64,000 nucleotides of DNA from Zanthoxylum bungeanum (Eukaryota; Streptophyta; Magnoliopsida; Sapindales; Rutaceae). Shown one piece after another: positions 6,363 to 63,206 of this stretch. The notes below the pieces were generated by a model. It was not told the origin of the DNA. It saw nothing but the letters and a program-made list of their open reading frames with translations, and made no database searches. Both the position numbers and the translations under genes were made by a program. The stretch is from positions 1 to 64,000 of the forward strand of contig SKCR01041530.1 of NCBI GenBank assembly GCA_019454045.1, given 5' to 3'. Each line of letters starts with the position of its first letter. Positions within the stretch are counted from its first letter, which is position 1.

Positions 6363-6424
6363 AAGGACAGATCTGATGCATGAAATGGGACGCAATAAAT
6401 AAATGGTGAATAGTACAATGCGAG

Positions 6425-10364: not shown

Positions 10365-10426
10365 GGGGACAGATCTGATTCATGAAATGGGACGCAATAA
10401 ATAAATGGTGAATAGTACAATGCGAG

Positions 10427-26215: not shown

Positions 26216-27278
26216 AGATTTATTTATTATAATAAGAGAGATTTCTAAATTATAAATAGTAAAGGTAGATTAATCTCACTTAATTTATAATATGGAAATT
26301 GTAATTTAATAATATGGATTAAAAGTTGATTCCACTTTAATGGCTGGTTTTAATTATGTAACATAATGTGACACCACTTCTAGGTCGGTCTAAGGTGACA
26401 GATGATTACTGCCTATATGGCTGGTATATGGATAAATAATAACACCGCCTTTATGGCTGGTTCAACTTAAATGGGTAACAATGACAATTTCCATATGATA
26501 ATAAAGTGAGATTTCTAAAAGTGGATCCCCTAACCCCCAACATTTTATTTTTATTCTAGGGAAGTGATGAAACACAATATTCACATACTTAATAATTGAT
26601 TTAATTATATATTAGGTAATTCTTTAGTTTGTTTATTGAATCTTAAGCTTAATGCTTCTTGTTGCCCGATCACCACTAAGATTGATATGGTAAACTTAAA
26701 ATGAACTTGACAAAGGGATTTTAGGTTTCAGTCTTAGATTCAATAGCCCACAATCTTTCTTGAGGATAGATAACCCTTTAATAGATTTCCTTCCAGGATA
26801 GACATAAACCTGTCGGGCGGGGGTAGCCATAATTGGAACTTGAACTTAATGAATTCGGGTAACTTGGTTAACATAGACATATGATTAATTGGGTTATTTG
26901 GGTATTTGCGTCTGACCATCGACAGAGGCTTTTGCATAACTTCGTGTTCCAGGTTAGCCGATTAATTTATTACACATATATAAGAGAATCAATTCATCTT
27001 TAGAATAATATTGTGTGGAGTCACGACCCTAGATATTTGTGACATTTGTTTATTTTTCTTTAGTATTTTCTTTTGTTTATTTCATTTAGCAAATCCACAT
27101 TCAACCAACCAATCAAACAATCATTCTCTTCTCCCTTAATTAGATACTTGTAAATAAATAGTATCAACAATTAATAACAATAGTAGGAATTAAGTCCTCG
27201 TGGGATCGATATTTTTATACTACTTGAACGATACGTGCGCTTGCGTTATACACGTGTGATTATGCACCAGTCAGGAGT

Positions 27279-30200
27279 ATCTCACAAGTCTCTTGTTTTA
27301 TATCATATATAAAATTTTATATCAAATATATCAGAGACTACTCACATTGCTTTCACGGAGATAATAAGACTTTGGTAAACTTTTTACCTCACAAACATCT
27401 CATTATTACATTAATAATGACAATGTTGTTAGGATATATAACACTAGAAAGAAATTTGTACACTCCCACTGACCCTACTATAAAATATGTATTCTCTATG
27501 CTTTGACAAAATCAGACAATCTGACTGTATCAAAATTAGAAAGCACATATTTTTGGAAAGCTTATCTGAGTCTACAATAGGCTCTATAAGCCAGTATATC
27601 AAACTATGATCTTAGCAGAATACAAACTCTAGGGCCATTCTAGAATGAATTCTTCAAACAAAGAAACCACACGGATCTCTTATTCGAAGAAACCATTCAA
27701 GAACGCTACTTGGAATTCTTTAGCCAAAATACATAGTTTAATATCAACATTAACCAATAAATCTTTAATTGTTCAATTAGTGCGACTTGAGACAAGTTTT
27801 CTCAGAATCTACAATAGATCACTAAGTATAACTTTTCTCAATGTCATACTATAAAAGGTCAAACCTTCATCAAGTTCACTTTGCTTTTACTGCGCAAATA
27901 ATTTGCACATTTTATGAACGATTCATAACAAAAGCTTAATCAAATTCAAAACTTGATCGTAGTAAGCTACGAACAATCTTAGATCTATGGTTTAATGGTA
28001 ATTTCCGAAATCGATATCAAATATCGCTCTCACTATAAGTTATAGGATAATTTTCTTCAATAAGAAAACAACAGAACCAATAAGTATCAAATACTTCGCA
28101 AATGATTCTGACATCCTATTGGACTTATATGGAAGTTGACTAAGGGTCATTTCATCTTATTAATTACATGGTTCCATTTATAGTTTATCACTCTCACATT
28201 TGACTTCAATAAGTCAAGTCTTTTCTACAATCATTAACATCTGATGTTACTTTCAAAGTAATAAAACAATTTTTATTACTCGGGATCGTAGAAAAGATAT
28301 TCTATCAAATAGAATATAATATTCTATTAAATAGAATAAATGATAAACTTTTACTTGTACCTCCAAGGCTCAAGTACTTTTTAATTATATAACCATTATA
28401 CAAAAGAAAGATTCAAATCTCAAACTTTTCAAGATTAGAATTTTATTTATACATATCATATACGTAATTGTAGAAACTAATGGAACAATAATTAAAAGGA
28501 TGAATTAGTGTTACTGGAGCATAACCCCAAGAGTATTGAAACAATTCGGTAACACTCAATATCAAATGAATAAAATCATATAAGATTCAATTTCTCTCAC
28601 TGATCAATTCCATCACGATGGAATCGTAAAAGAATCATTTGAGTAAGAATCACATTCAATAAATAACTTAGAACTAATTGCCTTAAATTCATATGTTGAT
28701 CATATCAAACATCTTTGAACAATTCAAAGATTCACGATGAATTTTAAAGATATAGTTTTCAACACTTCAAATAGAATATCTTTGAACCATTCAAAATATT
28801 CTATCCGCGTTTCATCGGAAACATATTGAAAGTCCTTGAACCATTCAAGACATTCAATATATTCTTTTAGAAACGTGTAACTAAGTCATGAAAATTCATT
28901 AACTGAGTTACGAAGTAAAGAAAATTATCCAAGGTATTTTATAATTCATTAAACTACATACTTCCAAAGTATTAGTTTAATAAATCTGTGGTCCAATGAC
29001 GATCATTGATTAAATGAGATTTAATCACATTCCTGAATAATATTCATAAATGGATAAGATATGTGGTGTGATCTTGTATCAGACCATCATTTACCATACG
29101 CCATACGAAAATAAGCATTTAATGCTTATGTGAAAAATCTCATAAAGCACTGTTCTAAGTTATTTAATTAACCGAATATTTTTCTTAATGTTTATCATCC
29201 TATCAATGACACTACTAGTCATATTAAAATATGTAACGACTGTTTATATAGAACAAGTAACTATCCAATAGTCACAAGTTCTGATATCAAATATCAAAAT
29301 AATCATTAAACATTATTTTAAATAACTAGATGGGAGATCTGGTATCCATATCTACAATTGTCGTATTGTGAGAATCGATATTCTCTATACACAACTATAC
29401 ACATTTCCTTTCTTTAGCTTTATAATTTGCCTTCAATGATTCACAACAATTGCAAATAATTGATTAGCAACTGTGTCAAACACGTGCATTCTAAAAGTCA
29501 TTAAAGCCAAAAAAATGTCATTATAAGAAAAACAAATACTTAATGGAGTTTTCTAAATGCCAGTCAAGAATCTCGAGACATGAACTAATTCATGTCAATT
29601 CTTACTGCACAAGAAACTATTCTCTCTAGACAATTATATCCTAAAAGAGATATATATATTTAGATTACTTATCGTGACTTAGAAACTAAGTCACTAACCA
29701 TCTTGATTTTCAAGAAAATCGAAACAACAGTTCCTGATGGTTTTAAAACAATCTAACAATATCCAAGTCTACTTATATTCTAGAACCTATTCTAGAAATA
29801 CACAACCATAAGGGAAGTCAGAAAACATATTCAACTAATATGCATGCAGTGGATTAGAAGTATAATTCTATTAACAATATAGAATAAATGAAAACAACAG
29901 CAGCAATTTCCATAAAATTACGCACTGCCTTAGTTATGGATTTTTAACCCAGCAGTATCTCCCACTACTTTACGTAATACCGTAATCCCCAACGGAGAAT
30001 GGGAATTCAATAACTAAATTGAATTCCATAGTGAGAGTAGGATCCCATGAATATATTTTGACTCATAGCTTTGGCACAATCTCGCATACGTATATTCATT
30101 AGGTAGACAACTTATTGTCAATCACTCACCAGTGACTCCTAATTTTGGTCCTGACCATTTCTCGTTATGTCAGCTTTGGCACGTTCACAATGAGGCATAT

Positions 30201-30465
30201 CAAGGCTTCACTTGCCAATGACAAATTCAAGCTACCGATGTAGTCCTGATAGCTTTGGCACGTTCAGGATTTCCACTTTCACTTGAATTTGTCTAGTATC
30301 AAATATACATCCGGCATGGATAAAATTGTATCAACTACACCCTCACTGCTTTGGCACTTTCTCGGATGCAGCTAAAAAGAAGATACTCATAAACCGTATT
30401 GACAAGACGAACCAAGAAACATGCATCAAATACATGTTACTTTACAGCCTTATTTAATCGGGGAT
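27279..30465 (-). other. Non-coding internal domain of LARD copy 2, 5' part
   Basis: Matches the reverse complement of about 52270-55450. In the last 450 bp (30047-30371) it carries four exact GCTTTGGCAC decamers, each inside an inverted repeat. I see no gene: the longest frame is 69 codons (27645-27854) and is not conserved. Confidence 0.8.
30047..30371 (-). ncRNA. Hairpin array with GTGCCAAAGC loops (LARD leader), copy 2
   Basis: Four hairpins in plus coordinates: ATGAATATA/TATATTCAT (30047-30099), CTCGTTATG/CACAATGAG (30161-30194), TCCTGA/TCAGGA (30244-30269) and CTACACCC/GGATGCAG (30335-30371). Each loop contains GCTTTGGCAC in the plus strand, that is GTGCCAAAGC in the transcript sense. 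The position is just downstream of the expected primer site. A packaging or dimerisation role is inference. Confidence 0.55.
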
Positions 30466-32509
30466 TGTAGACAACAGGAGCTGGGCGACGCCGTCCTAGG
30501 CTCGCGGCTAGCTGAGAAGTATGAATAACATGGAGTCGCCACCCGGTGTGAACCGGGACAAAGATTTAAGGCCGCACTCACTCCTTGCAGGAGAAGACCT
30601 CAAACCGTTGGGTTCGGAATGGTCTCTTACTTTATGTCATCTTGTAATGTTTGTGATTTGTGTAATATTAACCAAGTCTACTTAGCATGCATGCTCAAGG
30701 GTACTTAGATCTAACATGCTTTCATCCAAATAATTTCACGCAATATAACACAACGAGCACATTGAATCATTACATTAACATGTATAAATCATTACCCAAA
30801 CGCATTATAAACTAATAACGTGCATAAAGGACAACATAAATATGCTTTAACAAATAAATAACAAACTAAGCTAAATCATGCTTAAATACAAATTCGGATG
30901 AGACGAGATATGTGTATCTTAAGTGGTACGTGGCATTGTATCCCGAGTGCAGACCGCACTACCGTCCATTCGGAATCGGCTACGGAATTTACGTCCGGGT
31001 TTCCATCCGATATACCACAAGCAAGAACACATATTCCATTCATCCGAAATCACATCACATACTAAGTCATTATTTCATGCGAATAAATTCAAAACAACAT
31101 GCCAAACTAACTATTCAAGCTAAACACATGCTTTCTAATTCATTATTTCATGCGAATAAAAATAACAAATTAACTAAGAAATAAATGATGATAAATAAAA
31201 TAGGTGCCCTCAGGTCTTACCTTTTAGTCGCTATCCGGGAGTGCGTTCCACGGTGCCAGAAGGGTTATCATCCCACTGTTCTCACTGATCCGTTGTTTCC
31301 GCTGTTTTGTCCGGGTTCGCCGTTTTCACTGTTTCCATAGGTTCACTGTTTCTGCTATTTTCTCCGCTTTCAACGGGTCCGCTATTTTCACTGTTTTCAC
31401 CCGCGGTTACAGTTTGCTATTTTCGGCCATTTTCTCACAGTTTTGACTCGCCGTTTTCTCTCTGGCAGTTTGGTGCGTGTATGGGGCTGATATAGGCATG
31501 ATAATGGACAGTTTGCTGGACGTGCGTGAGGGTGGCTTGAAGGGCAGTGGATTTTGTACGTGAGAGGTTTCAGGGGGGGATTACATGAGTTTGGCTTGAG
31601 TGAGGACTGTGTTGCTAGGCGTGGATGGGGGCTTCGTGAGGGCTGGTAAATGCGTGAAGGTCAGGCTGCTGCGTGGAGCTTTGTACGTGAACTTAGAGGC
31701 TGTCTTGGTCGTGAGTGACTTGGCTGGTGAAGGGAGGGGCTCAGTTTAGGAGTTGGGCGAGAGTCAGAGGGATGCTTGGGGAAGGTATCTGCGTTGAAGG
31801 GCTGATGAAATCAGTTAGTTGCTGGTGTCTTAGGGTTTTTCATTGCCGAGAGTCAGGTTGTGGCATGATGGGGCTGTTTGAGTGGAGATGTGAGGGCTGT
31901 GAAGGAGCCTCTGCTCCTGGAGGGGCTGTGTGCTGTGGAGTGGAGTGGCAGTAGGCAGACGTGAGGAGTGAAGGCTGGTGAAGGCAAATGGGCGTGTGTT
32001 GATGTATGAGGGGTTCTTGGCTTCTTTTTGTGAGCAAAGGGCTGGTGCGTTTGATTCAGGGGCAGGTGGCTGGTGCGTTCATGGTGCTAGGTCTGGTGAA
32101 GAGGATTCTTTTTGCTGTCATGATTAGGCTTGTTCAGGTTATGGAGGAGGCAGGTGCGTGAGTGGAGGGAAAATAATAGAGGTGGATGGGCATGCATGGA
32201 GGAAAGAATGGGCAGTGCATGGGTTTGGCAGTGTATAGGTGAGGTGAGAATGGGCAGTGCATGGGTTTGTGCTTCTTAGTGTTTGGTGTGGTTATTGTCT
32301 ACGTGGGGATTATGGGTGGCATGGATAATTTGAAACTGAGACCGAACGAGCGAACCCGAAACTTGAACAAGCGAACCAAATCCAACAAAAATGTCAATTC
32401 TTGACCATTCCCTTCCGACGACCGCTTTCCGCAACTTCCGCAACTAAAAAGGTAGTGCCTCCAGTCGAGGCTCATCATTGGGCTGATATGCAAAAATGCA
32501 ATGCCTACA
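30466..32509 (-). repeat. 3' LTR of the second Tat-type element
   Basis: 2044 bp. On the minus strand it begins TGTAGGCATTGCATTTTT and ends TCCTGTTGTCTACA. Its outer parts match 37866-40826, but the central U3 (about 31480-32320) does not align and is much shorter. G-rich frames in it (31715-31954 and others) are not genes. Confidence 0.85.
30923..31018 (-). ncRNA. Candidate structured element in Tat LTR, copy 4
   Basis: Closing stem GTGGTA/TACCAC, inner pairing CCCG/CGGG and a small AGTGC/GCACT hairpin in the core. Confidence 0.5.
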
Positions 32510-32510
32510 G

Positions 32511-32523
32511 TCGCCCCCACTTT
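32511..32523 (-). other. Polypurine tract of the second Tat-type element
   Basis: Minus strand AAAGTGGGGGCGA, one base before the 3' LTR start TGTAGGC. Confidence 0.8.
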
Positions 32524-32649
32524 GATGGGTCTTGTTCAGTGTGTGACAATGACAATCCTATCAAAGTTCGTGCAATGCATTTTTACTTACCTGGCTCGCC
32601 AGCTGCCACATGGTTTGCCTGCTGTGTTGAGTTGAGTTGGTCTGGTTGT

Positions 32650-32975
32650 GCCATTTTCGGCCTGTGCTCCATTTTGGAGCGCCATTTCCGGCATCTGTTG
32701 TGTGTGTGCTCCATTTTGGAGCGCCATTTTCGGCATCTGTTGTGTGTGTGCTCCATTTTGGAGCGCCATTTTCGGCATCTGTTGTGTGTGTGCTCCATTT
32801 TGGAGTGCCATTTCCGGCATCTGTTGTGTGTGCTCCATTTTGGAGCGCCATTTTCGGCATCTGATGAGTGTGCTCCATTTTGGAGCGCCATTTTCGGCAT
32901 CTGATGAGTGTGCTCCATTTGGAGCGCCATTTTCGGCATCTGTTGTGTGTGCCCCATTTTGGAGCGCCATTCTGA
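32650..32975 (-). repeat. 40-42-bp tandem array A (about 8 units)
   Basis: CTCCATTTTGGAGCGCC recurs at about 32667, 32709, 32751, 32793, 32833, 32873 and 32913, with a final variant at 32952. The core is itself an inverted repeat (CTCCA...TGGAG). It lies upstream of the polypurine tract, the site of hypervariable 3' untranslated repeats in Tat-lineage elements. Confidence 0.85.
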
Positions 32976-32994
32976 TGTGATGGTGTGTGATGTG

Positions 32995-33585
32995 ATGGTG
33001 GTCCATTTCCGAACATGATGTGAGAGAGCGGCCCATTTGCGAACCATTGCTGATGTGATGGTGGTCCATTTCCGAACCATAACTGATGTGAGAGCGGCCC
33101 ATTTCTGAACCATTGCTGATGTGAGAGTGGTCCATTTTCGAACCATTGCTAATGTGAGAGTGGTCCATTTTCGAACCATTGCTAATGTGATAGCGGTCCA
33201 TCTCTGAACCGTTGCTAATGCGATAGCGGTCCATTTCCGAACCAATGCTGATGCGATAGCGGTCCATTTCCGAACCAATGCTGATGTGATAACGGCCCAT
33301 TTCCGAACCAATGCTGATGTCAAATCGGTACATTTCCGAACCAATACTGATATGAGATAGCGGTCCGTTTCCGAACCAATGCTGATGCGATAGCGGTCCA
33401 TTTCCGAACCAATGCTTATGTGAAAGTGGTCCATTTTTGAACCATTGCTGATGTAATAGCGGTCCATTTCCGAACCAATGTTGATGTGAAATCGGTCCAT
33501 TTCCGAACCAATGCTGATGTCAAAGCGGTCCATTTCCGAACCAATACTGATATGAGAAAGAGGTCCATTTCCGAACAGTTGCTGA
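32995..33585 (-). repeat. 33-bp tandem array B (about 17 units)
   Basis: The unit is of the type GGTCCATTTCCGAACCAATG plus 13 bp, with period about 33. As 33 is a multiple of three, frames stay open across the array and give a spurious 368-codon frame (33689-32583) with an 11-residue repeat around VRKWTA. Confidence 0.85.
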
Positions 33586-33589
33586 TAAT

Positions 33590-34035
33590 GTTGTGGGCCT
33601 CGCCCCCAGAGTGGTACACCTGGCAAAACTGATACTGAACTGATGTGGGCCTCGCCCTCTGAACGGCATACCCGGCAGATACTGATCATGAACTGATGTG
33701 GACTTCGCCCTCAGAATGCCATACGCGGCTGATACTGATCCTGATGTAATATGGGCCTCGCCCCTTGAATGCATTTCCCGGCAGAAACTGATCTGAATTG
33801 ATGTGGGCCCCGACCCCAGAATACCTTACCCGGCAGAAACTGATCTGAATTGATGTGGGCCCCCGCCCCCCATAATGCCATACCCGGCTGATGCTGATCA
33901 TGAACTGATGTGGGCCCCGCCCTCAGAATGCCATACCCGGCAGAAACTGATACTGAACTGGTGTGGGCCTCGCCCCAGGTTGAGATAGGCCTCGCCTTCA
34001 AACTGATACTGATGTGGGGCTTCGCCCCCAAGCTG
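33590..34035 (-). repeat. ~60-bp tandem array C (about 7 units)
   Basis: Units carry TGATGTGGGCCTCGCCC and a CATACCCGGCAGA phrase with a period near 60 bp, degenerating towards 34035. It is the third array in series in this 3' region. Confidence 0.8.
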
Positions 34036-35016: not shown

Positions 35017-35670
35017 TTACCGATTCATATCAATGTCCAATTTGCGCTTCTTGCCACGATCATTATCAGTCCAGTCCAATTTGGAGATGATAGGGTCAAG
35101 CTTCGGCTCAAAATCCAGGATCTGGTCAATCAACTCTTCGGCCTTTGTTGCCGTCAGGAAAATGTCTTCCACAGATTTGGTGACAAATTCATGTCTCTTG
35201 GCTTCCGCCAAGAAACACAAACAGGAAATCGAAGAAGTGCTCAATATTAAGCACCCGATGGGTTTCCGGTGAACGTTTAGGTGTGCCCATGACGCCACTG
35301 TAAATATTTCTTCGAATGTGCCAAGTCCACCTGGTAATGCAATGAACGCATCTGCAGTATTAATCATTTCATGGAGTCGTTCAGACATACCTGATACAAT
35401 GCGCTCGTCTCCATTTGTTGGCCCGATTAACTGTTCATCTGCCAAAGGTCTCGGGATGATTCCCAAAACATTACCGCCACCATCTTGAACGGCTTTTGAA
35501 ACAGCTCCCATCATTCCCAGATTGCCACCGCCATATACCAAGTGCATGTTTTTCGCAGCCATGACTCGCCCCAATTCCTTAGCAGCTTCCAAGAATTTAG
35601 GTATGTTACCAGGGTTAGATCCACAGAAGACACAAATTTTCTTGAATCGTTGCTGTGAGGTAGCTTCCAT
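35017..35670 (-). CDS. LOG-family cytokinin riboside 5'-monophosphate phosphoribohydrolase, captured intronless copy
   Basis: 217 codons, ATG to TAA without interruption. LOG enzymes hydrolyse cytokinin nucleotide monophosphates to the active free base plus ribose 5-phosphate, in cytosol and nucleus. Family marks: VFCGSNPG (residues 14-21), LVYGGGNLGMMG (44-55), GMSERLHEM (94-102) and ALPGGLGTFEE (111-121). The Arg (98) and Glu (121) that I recall as important in plant LOGs are present; the usual Lys after that Arg is Leu. Residues about 140-155 do not fit the family because that stretch is read out of frame, with the frame restored afterwards. Length fits plant LOGs, whose genes normally have several introns; none is here, pointing to a cDNA origin. 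A TATA-like box lies about 60 bp upstream of ATG. Gene identity is sure; activity is not. Confidence 0.9.
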   Translation of the reverse strand: MEATSQQRFKKICVFCGSNPGNIPKFLEAAKELGRVMAAKNMHLVYGGGNLGMMGAVSKAVQDGGGNVLGIIPRPLADEQLIGPTNGDERIVSGMSERLHEMINTADAFIALPGGLGTFEEIFTVASWAHLNVHRKPIGCLILSTSSISCLCFLAEAKRHEFVTKSVEDIFLTATKAEELIDQILDFEPKLDPIISKLDWTDNDRGKKRKLDIDMNR

Positions 35671-36640: not shown

Positions 36641-36960
36641 TTTTCCCAGCAAAGTGCAGCTTCAATCTGCTTACGTCGACCGACTTGGTGAATTCCTCAT
36701 TTCCCAAATCTGGTAGTCTCATTGCCTTGTTTCCCAATCTTCTGTCTTTTCTGCTTATTTCGCTTAGAATTCTCCGTGTTCCAGATACCTCTGAATATTA
36801 TGATACCAAGGCTTTCTGTCATCAACTCCCACATCCGACATCTCGTCTGTCTCATACGCCTGTTTGCTTACAGCTGTCAACACAAATGATCTCATCACCA
36901 ATTCTTCGGATTTTCCAAGCCACAGCTAGTGTCACCAATGTGTCTGTCATCTGATTTTCT
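36640..36960 (-). pseudogene. Tat-type pol scrap (end of RNase H and linker)
   Basis: Across frames on the minus strand it reads SENQMTDTLVTLA, then KPWYH near a YLEHGEF-like segment, SRKDRRL and NKAMRL. These phrases resemble the RNase H end (NQMADALATLAS) and the pre-integrase linker (WYHDI...YLxxGxxP) of Tat/Ogre polyproteins. It is joined directly to gag scraps, so most of pol is deleted. Several stops and shifts. Confidence 0.55.
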
Positions 36961-37370
36961 GAAATTTGCAACCAGGGATAGTCTATGCCAGCTTCTGAGG
37001 TAAAACAACCATCTTCATTTACTCATATTCTCATTGCATCTTCAATTTTTCAAACATCTTTTGACAACGGTTTACCAAAACTGGAGAGTTGTCTGTTTCT
37101 GATAGGAGCAGTCTCTGAGGAAGTGGGCTCGGTCTTTGAAGGTTTTCCAGTGATCTTTTCATTCTGGTTGCACAGTTTCTGTTACTGACTGTACAGGGCA
37201 CGGTCAAACTGGTCGCATCATTATTCAGGACTTGTAACTGCTCAACAATCTCGGCTACCCTGGTTCCAATCGATCTAGGCGGGATTCCCCGTTAGTTGAC
37301 TTACTCATACTGGCTGACGGTTCTTTGACAAATCTTCCTTCTTTCCCAACCCAACAGGAGTCTATAATGG
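36960..37370 (-). pseudogene. Tat-type gag scraps
   Basis: N-terminal homology to the first Tat gag (KAIIDSCWVGKEGRFVK against QKDIIDTVWVREGTRLTK), then a jump to the segment TAPIRNRQLSSFGKPLSK (against EVATVKNRHFSNLGKPLSK). The gag core between them is missing. Frameshifted, not translatable. Confidence 0.65.
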
Positions 37371-37845
37371 CTTTAAGACACAAATGGTTAACATGATGCA
37401 TGTATGCATGATATGTGTGCAATGTATGGAATGAATAAGTTCATAAAAGAATTTACACAATCGGCCCGTTATCATTTTAAAGTATCCAATCACACTATTG
37501 CAATGCAAACTTGTCCCAGTTGAAAAGGCCCAACAAGTTTACACTTTTGCAATAACACGGCTAAATAACTTCAAATGATAAATGCCCAAACAAAACTGGC
37601 CCATCGGTATTTCAGAAATTTCGGCCTAATTGTCAAAAGGACATGAACTTGTCCCGGTTTAAACGACAACGAGTCATATCTTTTAACAAGGAGTCCAAAT
37701 AAATCCAAATGACAACAGTCCAAAACACAAACATAAACACAAATGACAACAGTCTAAAACACAGGCATGAACACAGTAGTCATGATTAATTAAAACACAA
37801 ATCACAAACATTACAAGATAACATTTCAGAGCCAATTCTCTATAT
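37371..37845 (-). other. Leader between primer site and gag, second Tat-type element
   Basis: Non-coding. It shares with 8330-8790 the phrases GGCCCGTTATCATTTTA and CTTGTCCC(A/G)GTT, so the leaders of the two Tat elements are homologous. Confidence 0.6.
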
Positions 37846-37862
37846 CCCCAGTGGAGTCGCCA
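37846..37862 (-). other. Primer-binding site, tRNA-Arg type
   Basis: Minus strand TGGCGACTCCACTGGGG, identical to the site of the first Tat-type element and three bases from its LTR. Confidence 0.85.
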
Positions 37863-37865
37863 GAC

Positions 37866-40826
37866 TGTAGACAACAGGAGCTGGGCGACGCTTTGTCTAG
37901 GCTCGCGGCCTAGCTGAGAAGTATGAAATAACATGGAGTCGCCACCCGGTGTGAACCGGGATAAAGATTTAAGGCCGCACTCACTCCTCGCAGGAGAAGA
38001 CCTCAAACCGTTGGGTTCGGAATGGTCTCTTACTTTATGTCACTTGTAATGTTTGTGATTTGTGTAATATTAACCAACTCTACTTAGCATGCATGCTCAA
38101 GGGTACTTAGATCTAACATGCTTTCATCCAAATAATTCCACGCAATATAACACAACGAGCACATTGAATCATTACATTAACATGTATAAATCATTACCCA
38201 AATGCATCATAAACTAATAACGTGCATAAAGGACAACCTAAATATGCTTTAACAAATAAATAATAAACTAAACTAAATCATGCTTTAAATAATAAACGAA
38301 TAACCTAAAGGCTATAACATGCTCAAATACAAATTCGGATGAGACGAGATATGTGTATCTTAAGTGGTACGTGGCATTGTATCCCGAGTGCAGACCGCAC
38401 TACCGTCCATTCGGAATCGGCTACGGAATTTACGTCCGGGTTTCCATCCGATATACCGCAAGCAAGATTACATACTCCATTCACCCGAAATCACATCACA
38501 TACTAAGTCATTATTTCATGCGAACAATTTCCAAACAACATGCTAAACTAACTACTCAAGCTAAACACATTCCCTAAGTCATTATTTCATACGAATAAAA
38601 TAAATTACATGCCTCTTAATTCACTAATCCATACAAATAAAACAAATTACATGCTTTCTAATTCATTAATTCATGCGAATAAAAATAACAAATTAACTAC
38701 GAAAATAAATGATGATAAATAAAATAGGTGCCCTCAGGTCTTACCTTTTAGTCGCTATCCGGGAGTGCGTTCCACGGTGCCGGAAGGGTTATCATCCCAC
38801 TGTTCTCACTGATCCGTTGTTTCCGCTGTTTTGTCCGGGTTCGCCGTTTTCACCCACGGTTACAGTTTACTATTTTATCCGTATTCTCACAGTTTCAACT
38901 CGCCGTTTCTGCCGTTTCACTCGTTATTTTCACTCATGATTTTTCTGCATTTTTCTTCTATTTTCACTCGCTGTTCTCTCTGTTTCAACTCAAATTCTCA
39001 TGTTCTCTCTTGGATTATTCTTGGCTCGTTTTGGAGTGGTAGAGGGCGTGAAGAATGATACGGTTGAGGGACGGTTTTCACGTGAGTTTGGGGAGTTTTC
39101 TCGTGGCTCATTTATTCACTGTTTGTGCCTGAGAGCTGTGTCGGTTGGGTGCTATATGCACGTAGGGTTTAGTGGCTTTGTTCACGTCCAGGTGTGTGGT
39201 CTTCACATGGGTCATGTGATGTGTCTAGGTTTCTAGGGTTTTTTGTCATGTTGCATGGAGTTTGACGTGTCTGGGTGAGTGAGGGGATCCAGGTAAGGCC
39301 AGGGCTGTGAGTGCTCGGCTTGGGTGTAGTGAAGCGGTGAACGTGCGTGAAGGTGGATACCGATCTGTTTGTCTTAGAGGTGATGATTTTACCCAGAATG
39401 AGGGCTGTCCCTTTGTGCCGAGAGCTGAAGGTGAACAGAGATCATGGTGAGGTGCGTTGCTCTTGTGGCCGAGTGGCTAGGTTCGTGAAGGTCAGTGGGT
39501 TCAAGTCGTGGAGTGTGTTGATGGCCAGTGAAGGGCAGAGGCCGAGAGTTTGAAGTGGCTGAGTGTAATGATCAGTTGCTGTCGATGAGGATGAAGGGTT
39601 CCTTCGTTAGTGGTGACCTGAAGGAGAGTTGTGTTCTGCCGAGAAGAGTGTTAAGGTTCCAGAGTGAAGGGCTGTGATCCTTGGCCGAGAAGAAGATGGA
39701 TCAAGGTCGTGAATGGAGGTAATGAGAGTGGTGTGCCATGGATGTTAATGGCGTGAGGGCTGTGGAGATGATGAAGCCGAGCTGTAGGTGTCCCCCCTTG
39801 CCGAGAGCAGTTCCAGAAGATTGATGAAGGTCTCGGTTCTTTTGAAGATTGATGAAGGAGATGGATGATGAGGGCTGAATGGTTTATGGTCTTGTGATGA
39901 TCATCGAGAGTTGTGGATGCTGAGAAGAAGATCCAGGTCGAGAAGAGTGGTCCAGGTGATCCATGGTCGAGAAGAGTGGATGGGTTCTTGATGATCAGGT
40001 GGCCGTGAGGGACATGAAGGGAGCCGAGATGAGAGGTCCAAATGCGTGAGGTTCAGGGGTTTCTTGCTTGCTACCGGTGTAACGTAGTTGAGCTGTGCGT
40101 GAGTTTGAGGGTTCCAGTGGGCTGTGCTTGAATGGCGTCAATTGAAGGAGCAAGCAGGCTGGAGGGATCTTGGCAGAGAGAGGGGTGTCATGAAGGTTGA
40201 TCATCTGCCAGAGGCATGGGCGGTTAGTGGTTGAGGCAGGGAGCAGTGTATGGGCGTGAAAGACTGATTCCACGTGAAAGGGGCAGTGAGCTGTGATAAG
40301 GTGTAGGGTTTGAGTGTCGTGTATGGGTGGTTGCACGTGGGGTGAAGAAATGATGCTTTGTATCGGTGTTGTATGGGCATCACGTGCTGTGTGAATGTGA
40401 AGGAATGGGTTGTTGCAGTGTATGGGGTGTAGGAATGGGTGTTGCATGGAAGGTTATGGGTTTTTGTTTATTTGAAGAGATGTGTGGCAGTGTATGGTGG
40501 TGATGGGGCTTCACATGGGGGCTTTTGTTGGTTAGTGTTTGGAGTTAAAAGGAAGGTGCATGGGTTGGAATGGGTTACAAGCATGGAAAGTTAGAGATAG
40601 AGAATACGTGTGAGAAAGAGCGAGGAAAAGGTTCCGAGCGAAGGATGATTTTGAAATGGAAAAGGCGACGACGAACCCGAAGCAAAACGAGCGAATAAAA
40701 TCAACAAAATGTCAATTTTTGACTTTTCCCTTCCGACGACCGCTTTCCGCAACTTCCGCAACTAAAAAGTAGTGCCTCCATTCGAGGCTCATCATTGGGC
40801 TGATATGTAAAAATGCAATGCCTACA
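37866..40826 (-). repeat. 5' LTR of the second Tat-type element
   Basis: 2961 bp. Ends match 30466-32509, but the central U3 (about 39000-40660) is longer and different. A structured-element copy lies at 38364-38459. Long frames in the G-rich U3 (for example 39995-40447 minus) have no protein features. Confidence 0.85.
38364..38459 (-). ncRNA. Candidate structured element in Tat LTR, copy 5
   Basis: Closing stem GTGGTA/TACCGC (one wobble), otherwise nearly identical to copy 4. Confidence 0.5.
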
Positions 40827-41380
40827 CTGCTGTATTGGCTCCAACTTCATAAATTCCTGTAATTCTTTGGATCATGCTCCTTTCTGTTGGCCACAAGGAA
40901 TTGTTGTTGGCCATTTCTTCGATTAGGTCCCAGGCTTGATATTCTCCTTTTTCCATTAAAGCTCCTCCAGCAGCAGCATCAATTGTGGTTCTCATTAGTC
41001 CATAAAGTCCATTATAGAAAGTTTGGACTTGAAGCCATTTTGGAATCTCATGGTGAGGACATTTCCGGAGCAAATCTTTATACCTTTCCCAAGCTTCGTA
41101 GAGAGTTTCCGAGTCTTGTTGCACAAAGGATGTGATGTCATTCCTCAGCTTTCCAGTTCTGGCTGGTGCAAAGTACTTTGCAAGAAATTTGGTGGCTAAA
41201 GTGTTCCAAGTTGTGATGGAACCTGCTGGTAGTGAATGTAACCAATATTTAGCTCTGTCCTTCAAGGAGTATGGAAAAACCTGCAGTCTCATTGCTTCTT
41301 CAGCTTCTCGGTTGTAATTGAAAGTGCCGCAAACTTCCAGGAAGTTGCTGATGTGGGTATTAGGATCTTCAGTTGCTTTC
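40827..41380 (-). pseudogene. gag: Athila gag, C-terminal part, open frame
   Basis: The frame is open from the insertion junction (KATEDPNTHISNFLEVCGTF) through MRLQVFPYSLKDRAKYWLHS, GSITTWNTLATKFLAKYF, FVQQDSETLYEAWERYKDLL and CPHHEIPKWLQVQTFYNGL, the signature series of Athila-type retrotransposon Gag. It is cut at its C-terminal side by the Tat-type LTR. It continues upstream, in the same frame, at 43551 beyond the solo LTR. Gag would form the particle. The two interruptions make it dead. Confidence 0.88.
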
Positions 41381-43545
41381 TGATGAGCGGAAAATATATC
41401 AATATTTACCGCCCCTTTAACTTAATATTTTGTTTAGTTTCTCGGGTTTGATGAATGTTTTGATGTGTTTTAGTTTATTTTGCAGATAAAATAATATCGG
41501 GTCTCAATGAAATCATTTAGGACGAAAAATGGGTCAAACAAGGGCAATTATTGGACTTGATATTTTAATTTTGGAGATTGGAAACTTGAAAGGGCGTTTT
41601 TGACAAAGTGCAGTTTTGGAAATTCCAATTTTGCACATCTGTCGTATGTTGGGCATAACTTCTTACTCCGATATCGGATTGCGCTGATTCAAGTGTCAAA
41701 TTAAAGAAGACTCAAATATCTACAACTTGGAAAGACAAAATATTTTCGAATTCTGAAGATTTCATTACCGAAATTGATGAACCATCCAGAAGTGTGTGTG
41801 TGTAATTATTAAAGTCATTTTCAAAGCAAAATAATAAATTAATAAATAAATAATAAAATTATCAAATCATCACCAAACATGATAAGCAATTAGTGGAACA
41901 ATTAATAATATATTTGGTGGAGTAATTAGTGAAGAAATTAATAATGGATTTGGTGGAGAATTTGATGGATGATTTGATGGAGGTAAAATTTTGCCTATAA
42001 ATACCAAGCCATTTCATTTGTAAAATTCATATTTTCTTCTTTGAAATTCCTAAAGAATAAATAAGAAGATTGTATCTTGTTTGTTTATTTACAGCTTTCA
42101 GTAATTAGTTTCCGCTTTCGCACTTTCTTTTCTTTATTTTTCAGTTTTTACTTTCCGCAATTTACTTTTACGCACAATCATTTCCTTTCTTTACTTTTGC
42201 AGTTTTTATTTTTCAAGCAATGAGGAGGTAATTCCCATTTGCTGGGGTGAAAGGTAAAGCTTCTATTATTGGTATTTAGATTAATCTCCATTAATTATAA
42301 TATAAAAATATTTAAAACTTGACTTAATGAGGATACCGCTATATTGGCCGGTTGGTAATTAATTATAAATAGGTTTTAACCTGACTAAGTATGGATACCG
42401 CCTGGTTGGTCGGTTAGTAATTAATTATTAATTTGACTTAATCAGGATACCGCCTTTATGGCTGGTTGGTAATTATCACGTAAAATTAATATATTATATT
42501 AAGGGAGATATCTAAAATAGTAGTAATAAAAGTTGATTCTCTAACCCCAGCATTTTCTTTATTGTACTTTTACTTTATTTAATTTTCAGTAATTTACTTT
42601 TCAGCAATTTACTCTTCAGCAATTTACTTTCAGTAATTTACTTTTATTTTTTTTTAATTTTTAATTTTACTTTTACTTTTACTTTTACTTTTACATTTTA
42701 CTTTTACTTTTACTTTTTTTTTACTTTTCAGCATTTATTTACTTTTCAGTATTTAATTTTCAGTATTTTACTTTATGTCTTTTATTTTATTTAAATTTTT
42801 ACTACCCGTAAATATGTGTAGTAACTAAGCCAGTTATCTGGGGTTGTGATGAAATCCAATATCACCGGTTTATAAGGGGTTAGATTATAGCTTGGGTAAT
42901 ATAATGTTTATTTATTGAGTCTTAATCTTAATGCTTTTTATTAACTGGCCATTAATAAAATTGATTAGGTAAACTTAAAATGAACTTGGAAAATAGATTT
43001 TAGGTTAAAGACCTTAGACTCAATAGCCCACGATCTTCCTTGAGGATAGATAACCCTTTAATAGATTTCCTTACATGATAGGAATATACCTGTCGGGCGG
43101 GGGTAGCCATAATTGAAACTTAAACTTAATGAATCCATGTAATTTGGTTGACATAGACATATGGTTCAATTGGGTTATACTGGGTATTTGTAATCGACCA
43201 TCAGAAGAGACTTTTACATAATTTAGTGTTCCAGGTTAATAATTAATATATTACCCAACTGTAAGATAACCACTTCATCTTTAATAGATATTGGAAGGAT
43301 TCACAACCCTGAATAGTTTTATAAATTTGAATTTTCTTCAATCTACTTTCAAGAAATTTTATTTACTTGTTTTAAGTTTTAAAGTCACCACCCAATCAAA
43401 CAATCAATCTATTAGATACTTGTAAACATTTGACCTCATAAAAAATTAATAGCAAAGGTTTTAAGTCCTCGTGGGATCGATACTTTTTATACTACTTGAA
43501 CGATACGTGCGCTTGCGTTATACGCATGTGATTACGCACCGGTCA
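41381..43545 (+). mobile_element. Athila solo LTR, subtype B, inside Athila gag
   Basis: 2165 bp from TGATGAGCGG to GCACCGGTCA, flanked by perfect CTTTC duplications (41376-41380 and 43546-43550). It lies opposite in strand to the Athila gag it interrupts. It shares the U5 half with subtype A but has a different U3 without the CACGTG array. Long T-rich runs of the CTTTTACTTTTA type at 42560-42790. Confidence 0.93.
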
Positions 43546-43550
43546 CTTTC

Positions 43551-43833
43551 CCCCCAAACTGCACTAACTGCTGAATCATCTGAATGCATGTTTTGATGTC
43601 ACATGCATTTGCTGGTAAAAGAGGAAGTACAATACAGGAAATGAAGCCGTCTACCACCAGAATGGTTTGTCTCGAATGGGTATTGGTGGTGCAACTTCCA
43701 AAGGTTCAGGTTCCATGTTTACTAAAGCTTATTGGACTTCTCGCCTTTCCCTTCTCAACTGTCAGATGGTTCTTTCAATTTGTGGGTCAAACGGTCGGAG
43801 TTCAAAGCTTCTAGTTCATCTCATGTAGTTTCT
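43551..43833 (-). pseudogene. gag: Athila gag, N-terminal part, broken
   Basis: In reverse it matches the gag start at 63329-63488 (TRSFELRP, IERTI, LRRE, NMEPEPLEVAPPIPIRD). The start reads ATGAGATGA, so the third codon is a stop, and there are further stops. Near the solo LTR the frame becomes ACDIKTCIQMIQQLVQFGGK, which joins the open frame at 41380. Confidence 0.8.
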
Positions 43834-43931
43834 GAGAACCTGAAACAGAAGAAAACAACAACAATAAGTAAAAAGAAATTAGATACAAGTAAAAGTATCT
43901 AACCTCAAAACTAATAGTGAAAGATAAATAG

Positions 43932-43949
43932 TCCCCGACAACGACGCCA
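43932..43949 (-). other. Primer-binding site, tRNA-Asp type
   Basis: Minus strand TGGCGTCGTTGTCGGGGA, five bases after the LTR end. It differs at two positions from the complement of plant tRNA-Asp 3' sequence (TGGCGCCGTTGCCGGGGA, recalled). Confidence 0.85.
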
Positions 43950-43954
43950 AAAAC

Positions 43955-45990
43955 TTGACCGGCGTAATCACACGCGTATAACGCAAGCGCACGTATCGTT
44001 CAAGTAGTATAAAAAGTATCGATCCCACGAGGACTTAATAAATAATCTATTAATTTTATGAGGTCAAATGATTACTAGTATCTAACAGGTTGATTGATTG
44101 ATTTGAAATGGTGATGATTCTAAATTAAAAACAAGTAAATAAATTGCACGAAATTAGGTTTAAGAAAATTCAATATTAGGAAACTATCTAGGGTTGTGAA
44201 TCTTTCTAATATCTTTTTAAAAGATGAAGTGGTTATTTCATGTTTGTGTAATAAATCGGTTTACAAACCTGGAACACGAAATTATGCAAAAGCCTCTGTC
44301 GATGGTCAGATGCGAATACCCAGTATAACCCAATTGAACCATATGTCTATGTCGACCAAATTACCTGGATTCATTAAAATTAAGTTCCAATTATGACTAC
44401 CCACGCCCGACAGGTATATGTCTATCTTGTAAGGAAATCTATTAAGGGTTATCTATCCTCAAGGAAGATCGTGAGCTATTAAGTCTAAGGCTGAAACCTA
44501 AAATTCATTTGTCAAGTTTATTTTAGATTTACCAGATCAATCTTATTAGTGGCCAGTTAACAAGACCCATTAAGCTTAAGACTTAATAAGTAAACCTTTA
44601 AATTACCCAAACTATAAAATAACCCCTTATAAACCGGTGGTATTAGAATTAATCACAACCCTAGATAACTAACTTAGTTACGACGCATAACTAGGGCTAG
44701 TAAAAACTTAATAGTAAAAGACATAAAATAAAATGCTGAAACGTAAATGAAGAAAATTACAATAAAAGAAAACGCTAGGGCTAGAGGATCTACTTTTATC
44801 ACTACTATTTTAGATATCTCCCTCAATATAATATATTAACTTGTGTGATATTACCAACCAGCCATATATGCGGTAACTTGATTAAGTCAAATTAAGTCCA
44901 TAAACCAGCCATTTAGGCGGAAATTACCAACCGACTAACCAGGCGGTATCCATGCGTAGTCAGATTAAAACCAGTTTATAATTGATTACCAACCGACCAA
45001 TATAGCGGTATCCTTGTTAAGTCAAATTTTAACTAGTGAATATATTATAATTAGGGAGATTAACCTAAATAGAAGTAATAAAAGTTTCACCTTTCACCTT
45101 AGCAGGGGAAGTTACCTCCTCATGTTGAATAGTAAAAATTGAAAAGGTAAAAAAAGTAAATTATTATTACAGAACGTAATTAAAATTAATTACAAAACTG
45201 AAATTAAAAGAAACTAGATATAGAACTCCCTATTTACATCAGAGAATTCAGAGAGGAAGGTACATCTGAAACTGAAATCTCGAGCTGAATTTATAGGCGT
45301 TGATGGGGTCTCCGCGTCGCGACAGGCAAGGCTTTACGCGTCGTGACGCGCTCGATTTGCCGCGTGGTTTGCGGAGGTGATGACACGTGGCAATCTGGAT
45401 AAGGTGCCACGTGGCAAGACGGCTGGCAACTCAATGATTATGGTGACGTGGCGATGATGTGGCAATGTGGATTGTCGGCACCATAGGATTGCAACACGTG
45501 GCATGCGATGATTGGCTGATGATGACATGTCGCTGACGTGGCGAGTTGACTCGGTCTACTACTGATGTGGACGATAACATGGCTGGCACACAGGATGACA
45601 CATGTCAACACGTGGTGATGACGATTGTCGGCATTGTAGGATGATGACACGTGGCACGGCGCACGTTAGCGAATGGCTGTGATGTTGACATGTGGCAGAC
45701 GCACGTTAGCAAGTCATACTTTTCAGATCTGACACGTGTCCCCCGGCGCACGTTAGCAGCTAATGGCGCATGTTAGGCGTCGCGATGCCAAAGACTTTCG
45801 CGTAAAATTACCAAATTGCCCTTTTGTCTGTTGTTCACTATTTTGGCCCCAAATCACCTCCAAAGAGTCATGAAACTTTATTTATCTACAAAATAACACA
45901 AAACACATCAAAAAAATTCACAAAACTCAAGAAAATATACAAAATATTAAGTTAATGAGTGGGAAATATTGATATAATTACCACTTATCA
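43955..45990 (-). repeat. 5' LTR of minus-strand Athila element, subtype A
   Basis: 2036 bp. In minus reading it starts TGATAAGTGG and ends near GCCGGTCA. Contains the CACGTG array (about 45350-45770), TATA box (45288-45295), low-complexity blocks and GGATACCGCC units (about 44850-45015). The other LTR of this element is not in the window. Confidence 0.87.
45350..45770 (-). promoter_or_regulatory. U3 array of G-box/ABRE-like motifs
   Basis: Six CACGTG cores, mostly in the form ACACGTGGCA on the plus strand, between the U3 start and the TATA box. Same organisation as at 25129-25595. Confidence 0.6.
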
Positions 45991-52144: not shown

Positions 52145-55100
52145 GAGTCTGATTCTGGCCACCCTAATATGATTATTCCTTTTAAATTCAATGTTTAATT
52201 TATTCTTTACTTGTTGCATGCATGTATTTATTTAATTTGATTAAATAAATTAAAAGAATCTTTTGCGGAAAATCCCTAAATAATAAGGTTTTATGTAATT
52301 TATGTATTTGATGCATATTACATGGTCCGTCTTGTCAATACGGTTTATGAATATTTTTCTGTGACTACATCCGAGATCGTGCCTCTGCTGTGAGGGTGTA
52401 GCCGATAGAGATTTATTTATGCATGATGTATATTAGATACTAGATAAATTCAAGCGAAAGCGGAATCCTGAACGTGCCCTAACTGTCAGGGTTACGCAAG
52501 TAGCTTGAGTTTATCATTGACGAGTTTAACCTTAGTACGTCTCCTTGTGGGCTTGCCTTAGCACTCACAACAAGAAACGACCAGGACCGGAAACCCAGGA
52601 GTCACTAGTGAGTGATTGACAATGAGTTGTCTACTTGTGAATATACGTAGGCGAGACCTTACCTCTGCTGTGAGTCAAAATATATTCATGGGTTCCTCTT
52701 CCCATTATGGAATTTGATTTAATTATTGAATTCTCATTTTTCCGTTGGGGATACGGTATTATGTAAAATAATGGGAGGCACTACTAATTTTAAAAAATTC
52801 CATAACTTAGGCAGTGATATTATTATGGAAATAGCCGTTTGTTCGTTTCCTTATTCTATGTTTATATAGAATTGAACTTTTATTCACCGCACACATATTT
52901 TGTTATGTTATCTGACTTGACTCTTAGTTACAGTTATTATAGAATAAGTTCTAGATAATATTAGACTATGATATTTTTAGATTGGTCTAAACCATCTGGA
53001 ACTGTTGTTCCGATTTTCTTCAAAAATCAAGATGGTTAATGACTTAGTTTCTCAGTCATGACAGATAATCTAGATAGATATCCCTTTTAGGATATATTCT
53101 GTAGAGAGAATAGTTTCTTGTGTAGTAAGAATTGACACGAATAAGTTCATGTCTCGAGATTCTTGACTGGCATTAAGAAAACCCCATTAGGTATTTGTTT
53201 ATCTAGTAATGACGTTTCTTAGCTTTAATTACCTTTTAGAGGCAATGTGTCTGACACAATTTGCTAATCAGTTATTTGTAATTATTGTGAATAGTTGAAT
53301 GAATTAAAGCTAAAGAAAGGAGATGCGTATAGTTGTGTAAAGAAAATATCGATTTTCACAATACTACAACTATAGGTATTGGATACCAGATCTCCCGTCT
53401 AGTTATTTAAAATATTAGTTAACGATTGTTTTGATATTTGATATCGGAACTTGCGACTATTGGATATTTACTTGTTTTTTATAAATAATTGTTATATATT
53501 TTAAATATAACTAGTAGTGTCATTGACGTAGAGATAAACATTAAGAAAAAATTATTCGGTAAAGTAAATAATTTAGAACGGTGCTTTATGAGATTTTATC
53601 ACTTGAGCATGGATGCTTATTCCGTATGGTAAAATGATGGTTTGATATAAGATCACACCACATATCCTTATCCATTTAATGAATATTGTATTCGGGAAGG
53701 TGATTAAAATCTCGTTTAACCAATGATTTGTCATTGGACCACCAGATTATTAAACTGATACATTAGAAGTATGTAGTTTAATGAATTTTAATTGCTTAAG
53801 GTAGTTTTCTTTACTTCGTAACTTAGTTTATGAATTGTCATAACTTAGTTACGTGTTTCTGAAAGAACACATATTGAACGTCTTGAAATGATCAAGAACT
53901 TTCAATCTGTTCTGATGAAACATAGGTTGAACATTTTTGACTTGTTCAAATATATTCAATCTGAAGTTTTGAGAACTCTATCCTTAAAATTCATTACATG
54001 TCTTTGAATGTTCAAAGATCTTGATACGATCAAACATATGAATTTAAAATAATTATTTCTAAGGTTATTCAGTGAATATGATTCTTATTCAATATGATTC
54101 GTCCATGATTCCATCTTGATGGAATTGAGTAGTGGCAGCAGTCGAATCTTATATGATTTGATTCGTTTGATATTGAATGTTACCGAATTAGTTTCAATAC
54201 TCTTGGGGATATGCTCCAGTAACACTAGTTCATCTTTTTAATTTAGGTTCCATTAATTTCTACAGTTACATATATGATATGTCTAGGTAGAAGATCCGGA
54301 TCTTGAAAAGTTTGAGATTTGAATCTTTCTTTTTATAATAGTTATATAATGGAAATTACTTACACCTCGTAGGTATAAGTAAAAGTTTATCATTTATTCT
54401 GTTCAATAGAATATTGTATTCTATTTAATAGAATATCTTTCCTACGATCCTAAGTAATAAAATCATTTTATTACTTGGTGTGTAACATCGGATGATAACA
54501 TTGTAGAAAAGACTTGACTTATTAAAGTCAAATGTGAGAATGATAAATTATAAATGGAACTACTACGTAATTAATAAGATGAAACAACCTTTATACAACT
54601 TTTATATAAGTTTAATAGGATATCAGAATCATTTAGGAGTATTTAATACTTAATGGTTATGTTGTTTTCTTACCGAAGAAAATTATCCTATAACTTATAA
54701 TGGAAGCGATATTTGTATCGATTCTGGAAGTTTATCATTGAACCATAGATCTAAGATTGTTCATAGCTTACTACGATCAAGTTTTAAACTTGATTAAACT
54801 TTCATTATGAATTAGTTCATGATATGTGCTAATTGTTTGAGCAGCGAAAGCGGTGTGAGCTTATTAAAGGTTTGACCTTTATAGTATGACAGTGAGAAAA
54901 GTTATACTCAGCAATCTATTATAGATTCTGAGAAAACTTATCTCTAGTCACGCTAATTGAACAATTAAGATATATTGGTTAATGTTTATATTAAACTGTA
55001 CATTTTAGCTAAAGAATGCAAAATGGCGTTTTTTGAATGACTTATTCAGATAAGAGATCAGTTGTGATTTCTTTGTTTGAAGAGTTCATTCTGAAATGGC

Positions 55101-56300
55101 CCTAAAATTTATGTTCTGCTGAGATCGCAGTTTAGTGTGCTAACTTATAGAGCCTATTGTAGACTCGGACAAGTCTTCTGGAAATCCGTGTTCTCTATTT
55201 TTTATATCAGTCAGATTCTCTGATCTTGTCAAAGTATAGAGAATACATATGTGATTGAAGGGTTAGTAGGAGCGTACAAATTACTTTCTAGTGTTTATAT
55301 CCTAACAAAATTATCATTATTATGGTAATAATGAGATGTTTATGAGGTAAAAGGTTTACCTAAGTCTTCTTTACTCCGTGAAAGCAGTGAGAGTAGTCTC
55401 TATTATATTTGAAATAAAGTTTTATATAAGATATAAAACTAAGAGACTTGGGAGATACTCCTATTATTCGTACATTAGATATGATCTAATAAAGGATATA
55501 ACTAGGCTATCTGTATGACAATTAGTACAACTGTTGGACAGTTACTGTGTGTCTTATATAAAGTATTAATCTTTCGTAAAAGATGATTCCTTTTTCGAAA
55601 GAGATATTGATTAGAATGTCTAATCAATCTTATGTATCATTTAATGATGACATAATAAATACTTTATTATTTGTGATTGTAGATATCGATTTAATCGTAA
55701 TTGTTACGAGTTATTTTGATATCTTATAGACCATAGGATGAATCATGAAACACGTTCTTTGTGATCTTTGAGATATTAAGAACGAGTTTCTAATTCATGG
55801 AGAATACAGTCTGCAACCATTAGGGTCATATTAGTTTTGAGACTAATTATGACGTTAGACAGTCTACGTCATAAAGAGTCACAAAAGATGCAGTGGGAGT
55901 GTCACGAATGATTTTACAATTTAGTGGAATTAGATGCAACTTATGAAGTATTGACTTATGAAGTTGCATAGTGACCTTATAAATTAGAAGTTTTATATTG
56001 GTGTTGTACTTGCGGTTGTCCGCATATTATTTTGGATTTGATCCCTGAATACTTGGACAACTCAGTAGCTGTAGCACAATACTGATGTAGTGTCTGATTC
56101 ATATTAATGTATAATTTAGATTCTACAAAATATGAAAGATACTGGCTATGGGAAACGATTGGGTTTGTTTGACAAACTCAATATATTATAGCGGACTTAC
56201 ATCTTGTTGCCTACCTCTTAAGTGCTAGGTGAGCTTTTGAGGGACATGCGTATACAATACACATTGAGATTTGTATATGATACCGTGGATTGGCACAAGA
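52145..56300 (+). other. Non-coding internal domain of LARD copy 1
   Basis: AT-rich, stops in all frames, no gene. Matches copy 2 in reverse over the whole length with scattered substitutions and small indels, without the triplet pattern of coding sequence. It starts with the hairpin array at 52365-52688. Confidence 0.85.
52365..52688 (+). ncRNA. Hairpin array in LARD leader, copy 1
   Basis: Four inverted repeats: CTACATCC/GGGTGTAG (52365-52401), AATCCTGA/TCAGGGTT (52464-52493), CTCCTTGTG/CACAACAAG (52541-52574, two mismatches) and TGAATATA/TATATTCA (52638-52688). Loops hold GTGCCTCTGC, GTGCCCTAAC, TTGCCTTAGC and TTACCTCTGC, variants of the GTGCCAAAGC seen four times in copy 2. It begins about 220 nt past the primer site. 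Confidence 0.55.
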
Positions 56301-63200: not shown

Positions 63201-63206
63201 TTGTTT

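Follow-up and report, generated by a model that had tools for sequence, protein, structure and literature searches.

The LOG frame and its carrier in the window

The window, by which we mean the whole stretch of 64,000 nucleotides of Zanthoxylum bungeanum DNA analysed here, contains a LOG-family frame of 217 codons plus stop at 35017..35670. The original prediction of an intronless 217-codon frame of this family was borne out, though the frame lies on the minus strand (35670-35020), and the plus strand at 35017-35670 has stops throughout in the frame translated. The protein matches the Pfam families Lysine_decarbox (2.3e-25) and LDcluster4 (6.4e-18), and its best solved relative is Arabidopsis At2g37210 (2a33, 1.7e-50); that the frame is not due to chance is confirmed. 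It carries the motif PGGLGTFEE together with R98 and E121, which we take to be the catalytic residues of LOG, and ends in a basic tail, KKRKLDIDMNR. The surrounding element reads, along the minus strand, LTR, primer site, scraps of gag, aRH and integrase, LOG, T-rich sequence, tandem repeats, purine tract and LTR. The features located are the following:

40827..41376, minus strand: 5' flank, gag of an Athila-like element from the family that carries the clade-B LOG (see below), with 92% DNA identity to locus L061
37866..40826, minus strand: 5' LTR, TGTAGGC...CTACA, its middle (U3) unlike that of the 3' LTR (LTR comparison)
37845..37862, minus strand: primer-binding-site-like 18-mer TGGCGACTCCACTGGGGA, directly after the 5' LTR (sequence and position)
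37059..37374, minus strand: two Tat-type gag scraps, corresponding to residues 1-37 and 305-345 of the gag frame of locus L022
36767..36971, minus strand: scrap of archaeal-type RNase H (aRH)
36648..36737, minus strand: scrap of the integrase C-terminus
35017..35670, minus strand: LOG-family frame, 217 codons plus stop (Pfam, motif and structure match)
35215..35253, minus strand: wrong-frame stretch, residues 140-152 of the LOG (comparison with 21 clade-A copies)
32621..33976, minus strand: 3' tandem repeats, with 42-, 33- and 53-bp unit families
32510..32523, minus strand: polypurine-tract-like AAAGTGGGGGCGAC, adjoining the 3' LTR (sequence and position)
30466..32509, minus strand: 3' LTR, TGTAGGC...CTACA (LTR comparison)

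The same prediction had placed the frame in sense with a Tat/Ogre-type element, inside its LTRs, between RNase H scraps and 3' tandem repeats. Frame and element do share the minus strand, with LTR ends, primer site and purine tract in place; the RNase H scraps proved to be aRH remnants, accompanied by pieces of gag and the end of integrase; the repeats were found in three unit families; and the Tat/Ogre type was reached through a relative, locus L039, in which RVT_3 (aRH) lies between RNase H and integrase. The window element itself retains gag and pol as scraps only, neither gene being whole, and to judge from this arrangement it is a non-autonomous, internally deleted derivative of a Tat element of the Ogre/Retand type.

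The two LTRs are 90-98% identical in four main pieces and 86% identical in two short ones. At least one end of the element was probably rearranged after insertion, because the LTR middles show no match to each other, no target-site duplication was found at the element (CAGCAG against ATCCC), and the Athila-like gag that the element interrupts is not resumed in the 3' flank. The gag at 40822-41421 was considered as the element's own and rejected, since it belongs to the flanking Athila-like element. Compared with the window, the LTR region and gag of L061 show 85-96% identity to the closest Athila-like pieces and 76% to a further one; by this resemblance, the LOG element is inserted in the gag of an element related to the clade-B LOG carrier.

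Further repeats occur in the window. A related element on the minus strand at 5327-10721 has LTR-like arms at 9323-10721 and 5327-6719 (97% identical) and a Tat-type gag split in two (about 8217-6851), with no LOG match. An inverted pair of 3.2 kb (27273-30435 and 52302-55462, 83% identity) adjoins the 3' end of the LOG element, and further Athila-like copies, mutually inverted, lie around it at 43668-45990 and 61219-63486.

Copies across the host genome

The host assembly searched comprises 3.96 Gb in 51,709 contigs. A DNA pattern for the LOG catalytic motif, PGGxGT[LF]EE, gave 18,490 exact matches in it (9,203 forward and 9,287 reverse), and the reversed control pattern gave none. PGG[LF]GTFEE, the form of the window copy, accounts for 1,516 of these matches, and PGGYGT, the form of ordinary LOGs, was matched four times in the host genome. 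A search for LOG returned 150 scored matches from 67,711 loose candidates, all at 83% identity or more, and 148 were free of stops in the matched stretch; the clade to which the window copy belongs, A, also includes GTLEE copies such as L039. An ordinary LOG used as query (P0106) returned at least 150 matches, covering nearly the full query at about 51% identity, with 149 of 150 stop-free. The twelve that were fetched (L009-L020) form a separate clade, B.

For a sample free of similarity ranking we took the first 20 motif matches in listing order. Three of them (L046, L056 and L057) have an intact full frame (exact 95% interval 3-38%) and 17 are broken; the nearest clade is B for 16, A for two and P0009 for two. 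Extrapolated from these 20 matches, roughly 600 to 7,000 intact LOG frames are expected in the host genome.

Two lineages of carrier

Twenty clade-A loci (L021-L040), chosen by their LOG match, were fetched, and the element order of the window is repeated in all 20 as far as each stretch extends. An LTR start lies upstream in 16 of them and a primer site likewise in 16, at 2.3-3.7 kb before LOG. When the sequences preceding the LTR in these 16 loci and the window were compared, only 2 of the 136 pairs proved alike, and the clade-A loci are therefore separate insertions. Downstream, where the loci extend about 1.2-2.2 kb past LOG, a purine tract and LTR start were found in one of the 20 (L035). 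Whether more copies with the same order exist in the host had been proposed as a check on mobility; they do, so the notion that LOG moves as part of the Tat-type element is supported.

Thirteen of the 20 clade-A loci are of a deletion type, with scraps like those of the window, an aRH scrap and no reverse transcriptase (RT); in these loci, selected by LOG match, LOG is whole and gag and pol are reduced to scraps. Four others have a shortened gag without aRH, L022 has a whole gag frame of 465 codons and no RT, and L033 is interrupted by a contig end. The remaining locus, L039, reads gag-PRO-RT-RH-aRH-IN-LOG, its aRH being recognised as RVT_3. An aRH between RNase H and integrase is described as marking the Ogre/Retand type of Tat (PMC6317226), and because of this position L039 is assigned to that type.

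The longest clade-B locus, L061, is a longer stretch of the place from which L020 was taken. It reads gag-pol-small ORF-LOG, with LOG after integrase, and we call its carrier Athila-like. Athila elements have an OTA-type gag-PRO-RT-RH-IN layout that lacks aRH; RVT_3 (aRH) was not detected in the RH and IN frames of L061 that were scanned. The gag-pol of L039 and that of L061 are each split over several frames, so that intactness of either element is not implied. Of the 12 clade-B loci, for which 1.5 kb upstream was covered, three show the end of an integrase some 1.1 kb ahead of LOG.

Two loci hold more than one LOG. In L037, two whole LOG frames stand about 2 kb apart on the same strand, both basic-tailed, probably through a tandem duplication inside the element. 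L027 has a clade-B LOG (1810-2460) located upstream of its clade-A LOG element, and Tat-like LTR pieces on either side; by its layout, this may be a case of nesting or a recombinant carrier.

A second ORF beside LOG in the Athila-like carriers

Between integrase and LOG, L061 has a small ORF (6763-7131) matching Carla_C4 (2.2e-7) and Viral_NABP (1.4e-5). The ORF is 58-60% identical to four Citrus gene models over about 90-115 residues and 73% identical to the Primulina model P0267 over 49 residues; the Carla_C4 match itself falls just under the cut-off in Citrus P0241, P0261, P0264 and P0278 and just over it in P0267. Upstream of LOG, an ORF of this type is found in 4 of the 12 clade-B loci (L009, L013, L014 and L020), with a weak piece in L019, and also in L027. 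In L061 a stop immediately precedes the ORF when its frame is followed upstream, and this copy is therefore probably broken. When four copies were compared in pairs, five of the six comparisons gave a dN/dS of 0.36-0.51 and the last, which involves few changes, gave 1.15; strong constraint on the ORF is not shown by this four-copy comparison.

Selection on the LOG frame

Selection was assessed by the method of Nei and Gojobori, with ratios of mean dN to mean dS. The ratio is 0.10 within clade A (210 pairs), 0.21 within clade B (78 pairs) and 0.12 between the clades (273 pairs, with dS near saturation and one pair without a value), figures to be read with the origin of the copies in mind, because all 21 clade-A and 11 of the 13 clade-B copies came from a list ranked by protein similarity or from beside such a match, which lowers dN. 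Against clade A, L039 gives 0.07 and L040 gives 0.08. The Ka/Ks comparison proposed at the outset thus came out low (0.1-0.2) among mostly similarity-ranked copies, whose differences are mainly silent. In 14 LOGs from the 13 deletion-type loci (91 pairs), likewise mostly similarity-ranked copies, mean pN is 0.015 and mean pS 0.104, and divergence in the 600 bp upstream is 0.131. These values suggest that selection has maintained the LOG family, as if it were of use to the element.

The window copy stands apart. Compared with the 21 clade-A copies it has dN 0.0625 and dS 0.132, a ratio of 0.47 (median 0.84), and with codons 143-160 removed the ratio is 0.27 (median 0.71). Residues 140-152 are in a frame that differs from all 21 clade-A copies compared, and in the window DNA the residues that clade A has at this stretch can be read in the neighbouring frame. 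Because this 13-residue wrong-frame stretch is private to it, the window copy looks damaged and decaying; the family looks constrained, and the window copy does not. Any effect on hormone dosage or by way of siRNA, as the original prediction raised it, would have to come from a copy in this state.

Relatives in other plants and descent

The protein search listed 120 of 3,867 relatives, many of them without an organism name; at least 31 are from Reevesia pubescens, at least 10 from Xanthoceras sorbifolium and at least one is a retro-type protein of Populus. Carriers are shown for Citrus, Primulina and the host genome; the remaining relatives listed owe their placement to the tree alone. Among 43 long gene models containing LOG, 21 list RT, RNase H, integrase or gag domains, all of them from Citrus or Primulina. 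LOG comes last in all nine fused models scanned (Citrus sinensis, C. x changshan-huyou, Primulina eburnea and P. tabacum), and RT is present in four of the six scanned Citrus models. LOG is first or in the middle in P0254, P0258, P0260 and P0282, and the order in gene models is thus mixed. The remaining long models were set aside as ordinary LOGs fused to unrelated genes or as bacterial proteins, as were models with LOG beside LRR-kinase, BED or SWIM, taken to be annotation joins, and the models in which LOG does not come last. In three Xanthoceras gene models (P0013, P0021 and P0032), LOG stretches are tandemly repeated. Viral contigs scanned for relatives gave one pattern match, and none was confirmed.

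In a tree of 97 rows, nine ordinary LOGs are separated from the retro-type LOGs by a 100/100 branch. A second tree, of 45 rows with carrier labels, again sets the nine apart at 100/100, and its midpoint root falls between ordinary and retro LOGs. Mean identity between the two sets is 48%, against 60% within the retro set. The seven Tat-labelled rows of the second tree form one clade (100/100); the 12 Athila-labelled rows require two changes, forced by well-supported branches, and 17 rows have no known carrier. The labels of L009, L014 and L020 come from the integrase end about 1.1 kb upstream together with L061; for L013, L046, Citrus P0247 and Acer P0245 the label is an assumption from kinship or from reading. 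Since the Tat-carried clade nests among Athila-carried ones, with carrier labels partly assumed, the simplest reading would be that Athila-like elements had LOG first, with a single later transfer to a Tat element.

Bs1 is a narrow and recent capture of host cDNA. Like the LOG element, it has host-type coding sequence inside LTRs, whereas the LOG family is old and common to two carrier lineages. The initial comparison with a one-off capture of the Bs1 kind is not supported: on the evidence of the trees and gene models, the retro-LOG is an old resident gene of Athila-like and Tat elements, shared with the Athila-like elements of other plants.

Conserved residues and the C-terminal tail

E121 is retained in 106 of 112 non-host rows and R98 in 91, with Q in place of R98 in 14. 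Nearly all retro rows have PGG[LF]GT, where ordinary LOGs have PGGYGT. Most retro-LOGs end in a basic run and, after it, hydrophobic residues at alternate positions (KKRKLDLDLNL, KRKLNLTLSL and KKYKLDLTLRL). This basic and zigzag tail was found in 74 of 111 listed non-host rows and in 42 of 44 genomic rows (six loci counted twice), and it ends 10 of the 43 fused models, all from Citrus; it is absent from nine ordinary LOGs and from three ordinary LOGs in fused models, 12 checked in all. The 37 non-host rows that fail the tail test include some truncated models. Rows from Xanthoceras and those like P0038 keep the basic run and end before the LxLxL zigzag. A strict LxLxL within the last 22 residues occurs in 62 of the 111 non-host rows, and the window copy has the variant LDIDMN. 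According to published abstracts, LxLxL (or DLNxxP) is the EAR consensus.

What the LOG may do for its carrier

We infer that the LOG protein is made and serves the element. An intact copy is predicted to be an active phosphoribohydrolase, which would release cytokinin from the riboside monophosphate in the cell that expresses it. The released cytokinin would favour division, and hence the passage of the element to daughter and germ-line cells. The tail motif is short, and the role assigned to it follows the EAR literature: the basic, EAR-like (LxLxL type) tail is predicted to take LOG to the nucleus and to TOPLESS-type co-repressors. The window element represents a Tat derivative that kept its LTRs, primer site, LOG, repeats and purine tract after internal deletion.

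The most far-reaching reading, at a probability of roughly 0.4, is that LOG is a selected gene of retrotransposons, a hormone-activating, nuclear, EAR-tailed enzyme. It would have arisen in Athila-like elements before the rosid/asterid split, or have spread between the two groups, and have moved a single time into a Tat element; it would now be the sole whole gene of a non-autonomous family, with a carlavirus-type nucleic-acid-binding ORF beside it in the Athila-like carriers. The parts of the explanation that we prefer differ in strength. That LOG is a long-lived 3' extra gene, standing after integrase in two retrotransposon lineages, is highly probable; the cytokinin mechanism is tentative, somewhat short of even odds; the gene family and the cytokinin mechanism taken jointly we consider rather probable.

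Alternatively, the LOG domain may have lost its importance as a cytokinin enzyme and been repurposed as a nucleotide-binding protein or nuclear co-repressor that acts on element RNA or on silencing, with the EAR-like tail as its working part. Consistent with this, the basic and LxLxL tail is kept in Reevesia, Populus, Citrus and the host (there in variant form for clade A), the 12 ordinary LOGs checked lack it, and R98 is replaced by Q in the rows mentioned. The zigzag is, however, absent in Xanthoceras, and PGGxGT and E121 are kept beyond the needs of a dead pocket, so we regard repurposing as unlikely, though it is the best of the alternatives.

Passive hitchhiking, in which an ancient LOG capture is copied along without use to the element, would fit the broken state of 17 of the 20 listing-order matches. 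It fits less well with full frames of 216-217 residues in rows down to 42% identity, with a pN far under pS and also under the divergence of the non-coding leader of the same copies, or with a LOG that is whole among gag and pol scraps in the 13 deletion-type loci (chosen by LOG match), and we consider it more improbable still.

An ordinary host LOG gene or a recent processed pseudogene was suggested by the intronless frame and its kinship to At2g37210; this was rejected on the 100/100 split from the nine sampled ordinary LOGs in both trees and on the 48% against 60% identity, and has very little probability left. A lone copy inserted late into a dead element, as the differing LTR middles and missing target-site duplication of the window might suggest, is refuted by the 150 of 150 scored matches at 83% identity or more in the same genome and by the recurring order at clade-A loci, and its probability is close to nil.

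Known systems and significance

Plant LOG enzymes (At2g37210, 2a33; At5g11950, 1ydh) share the Pfam family, the PGGxGTxxE motif and the length of the retro-LOG, which differs from them in having PGG[LF]GT for PGGYGT, no intron in the copies read, a basic LxLxL-type tail and a mobile carrier. The original prediction knew of no named element with LOG; a YgdH (LOG) domain is in fact in print for LTR-element consensuses of Citrus sinensis, C. clementina and, in the unfiltered set, Populus trichocarpa (PMC9289625; Alvarado-Marchena et al., 2022), an article that cites Steinbauerova et al. (2011, Genetica). Its passages on YgdH report the presence of the domain, without lineage, position, copy number, selection or tail. 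Like the host elements, these are Gypsy-type elements with LOG, and in the Citrus models that we scanned LOG follows integrase and has the basic LxLxL tail. To what those passages describe, the host adds a Tat clade among Athila-carried ones, a LOG-keeping deletion family and about 18,500 motif copies. The giant Gypsy elements of Phalaenopsis with an ORF for an AlkB m6A demethylase (PMC9289625) are of the same kind, with a fixed extra gene for a host-type enzyme. The enzyme is a different one, and the screen reported in that article found them in two Phalaenopsis genomes only, whereas LOG elements occur in rosids (Citrus) and asterids (Primulina). Among the literature matches listed, in the parts available, none describes how many copies there are, which lineages carry them, selection on LOG, its tail or the nucleic-acid-binding partner. 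Within that literature, this old and heavily amplified retrotransposon gene family is known in general kind; what was not found in print is the Tat branch with its LOG-keeping deletion family, the transfer between lineages, the tail and the partner ORF.

There is also a practical warning to annotators: in genomes of this sort, intact frames annotated as "LOG genes" may in many cases belong to transposons. The 120 listed relatives include at least 31 rows from Reevesia pubescens and at least 10 from Xanthoceras sorbifolium.

Most extra genes carried by plant retrotransposons have no known use. If the most far-reaching reading given above is true, a retrotransposon would steer host cytokinin or co-repressors for its own spread. 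In the LOG case the enzyme family is known, the motif count runs to ten thousands, dN/dS is low in the copies taken, the tail is lineage-specific and a move between two retrotransposon lineages can be traced, so that manipulation of a plant hormone by retrotransposons can be put directly to experiment.
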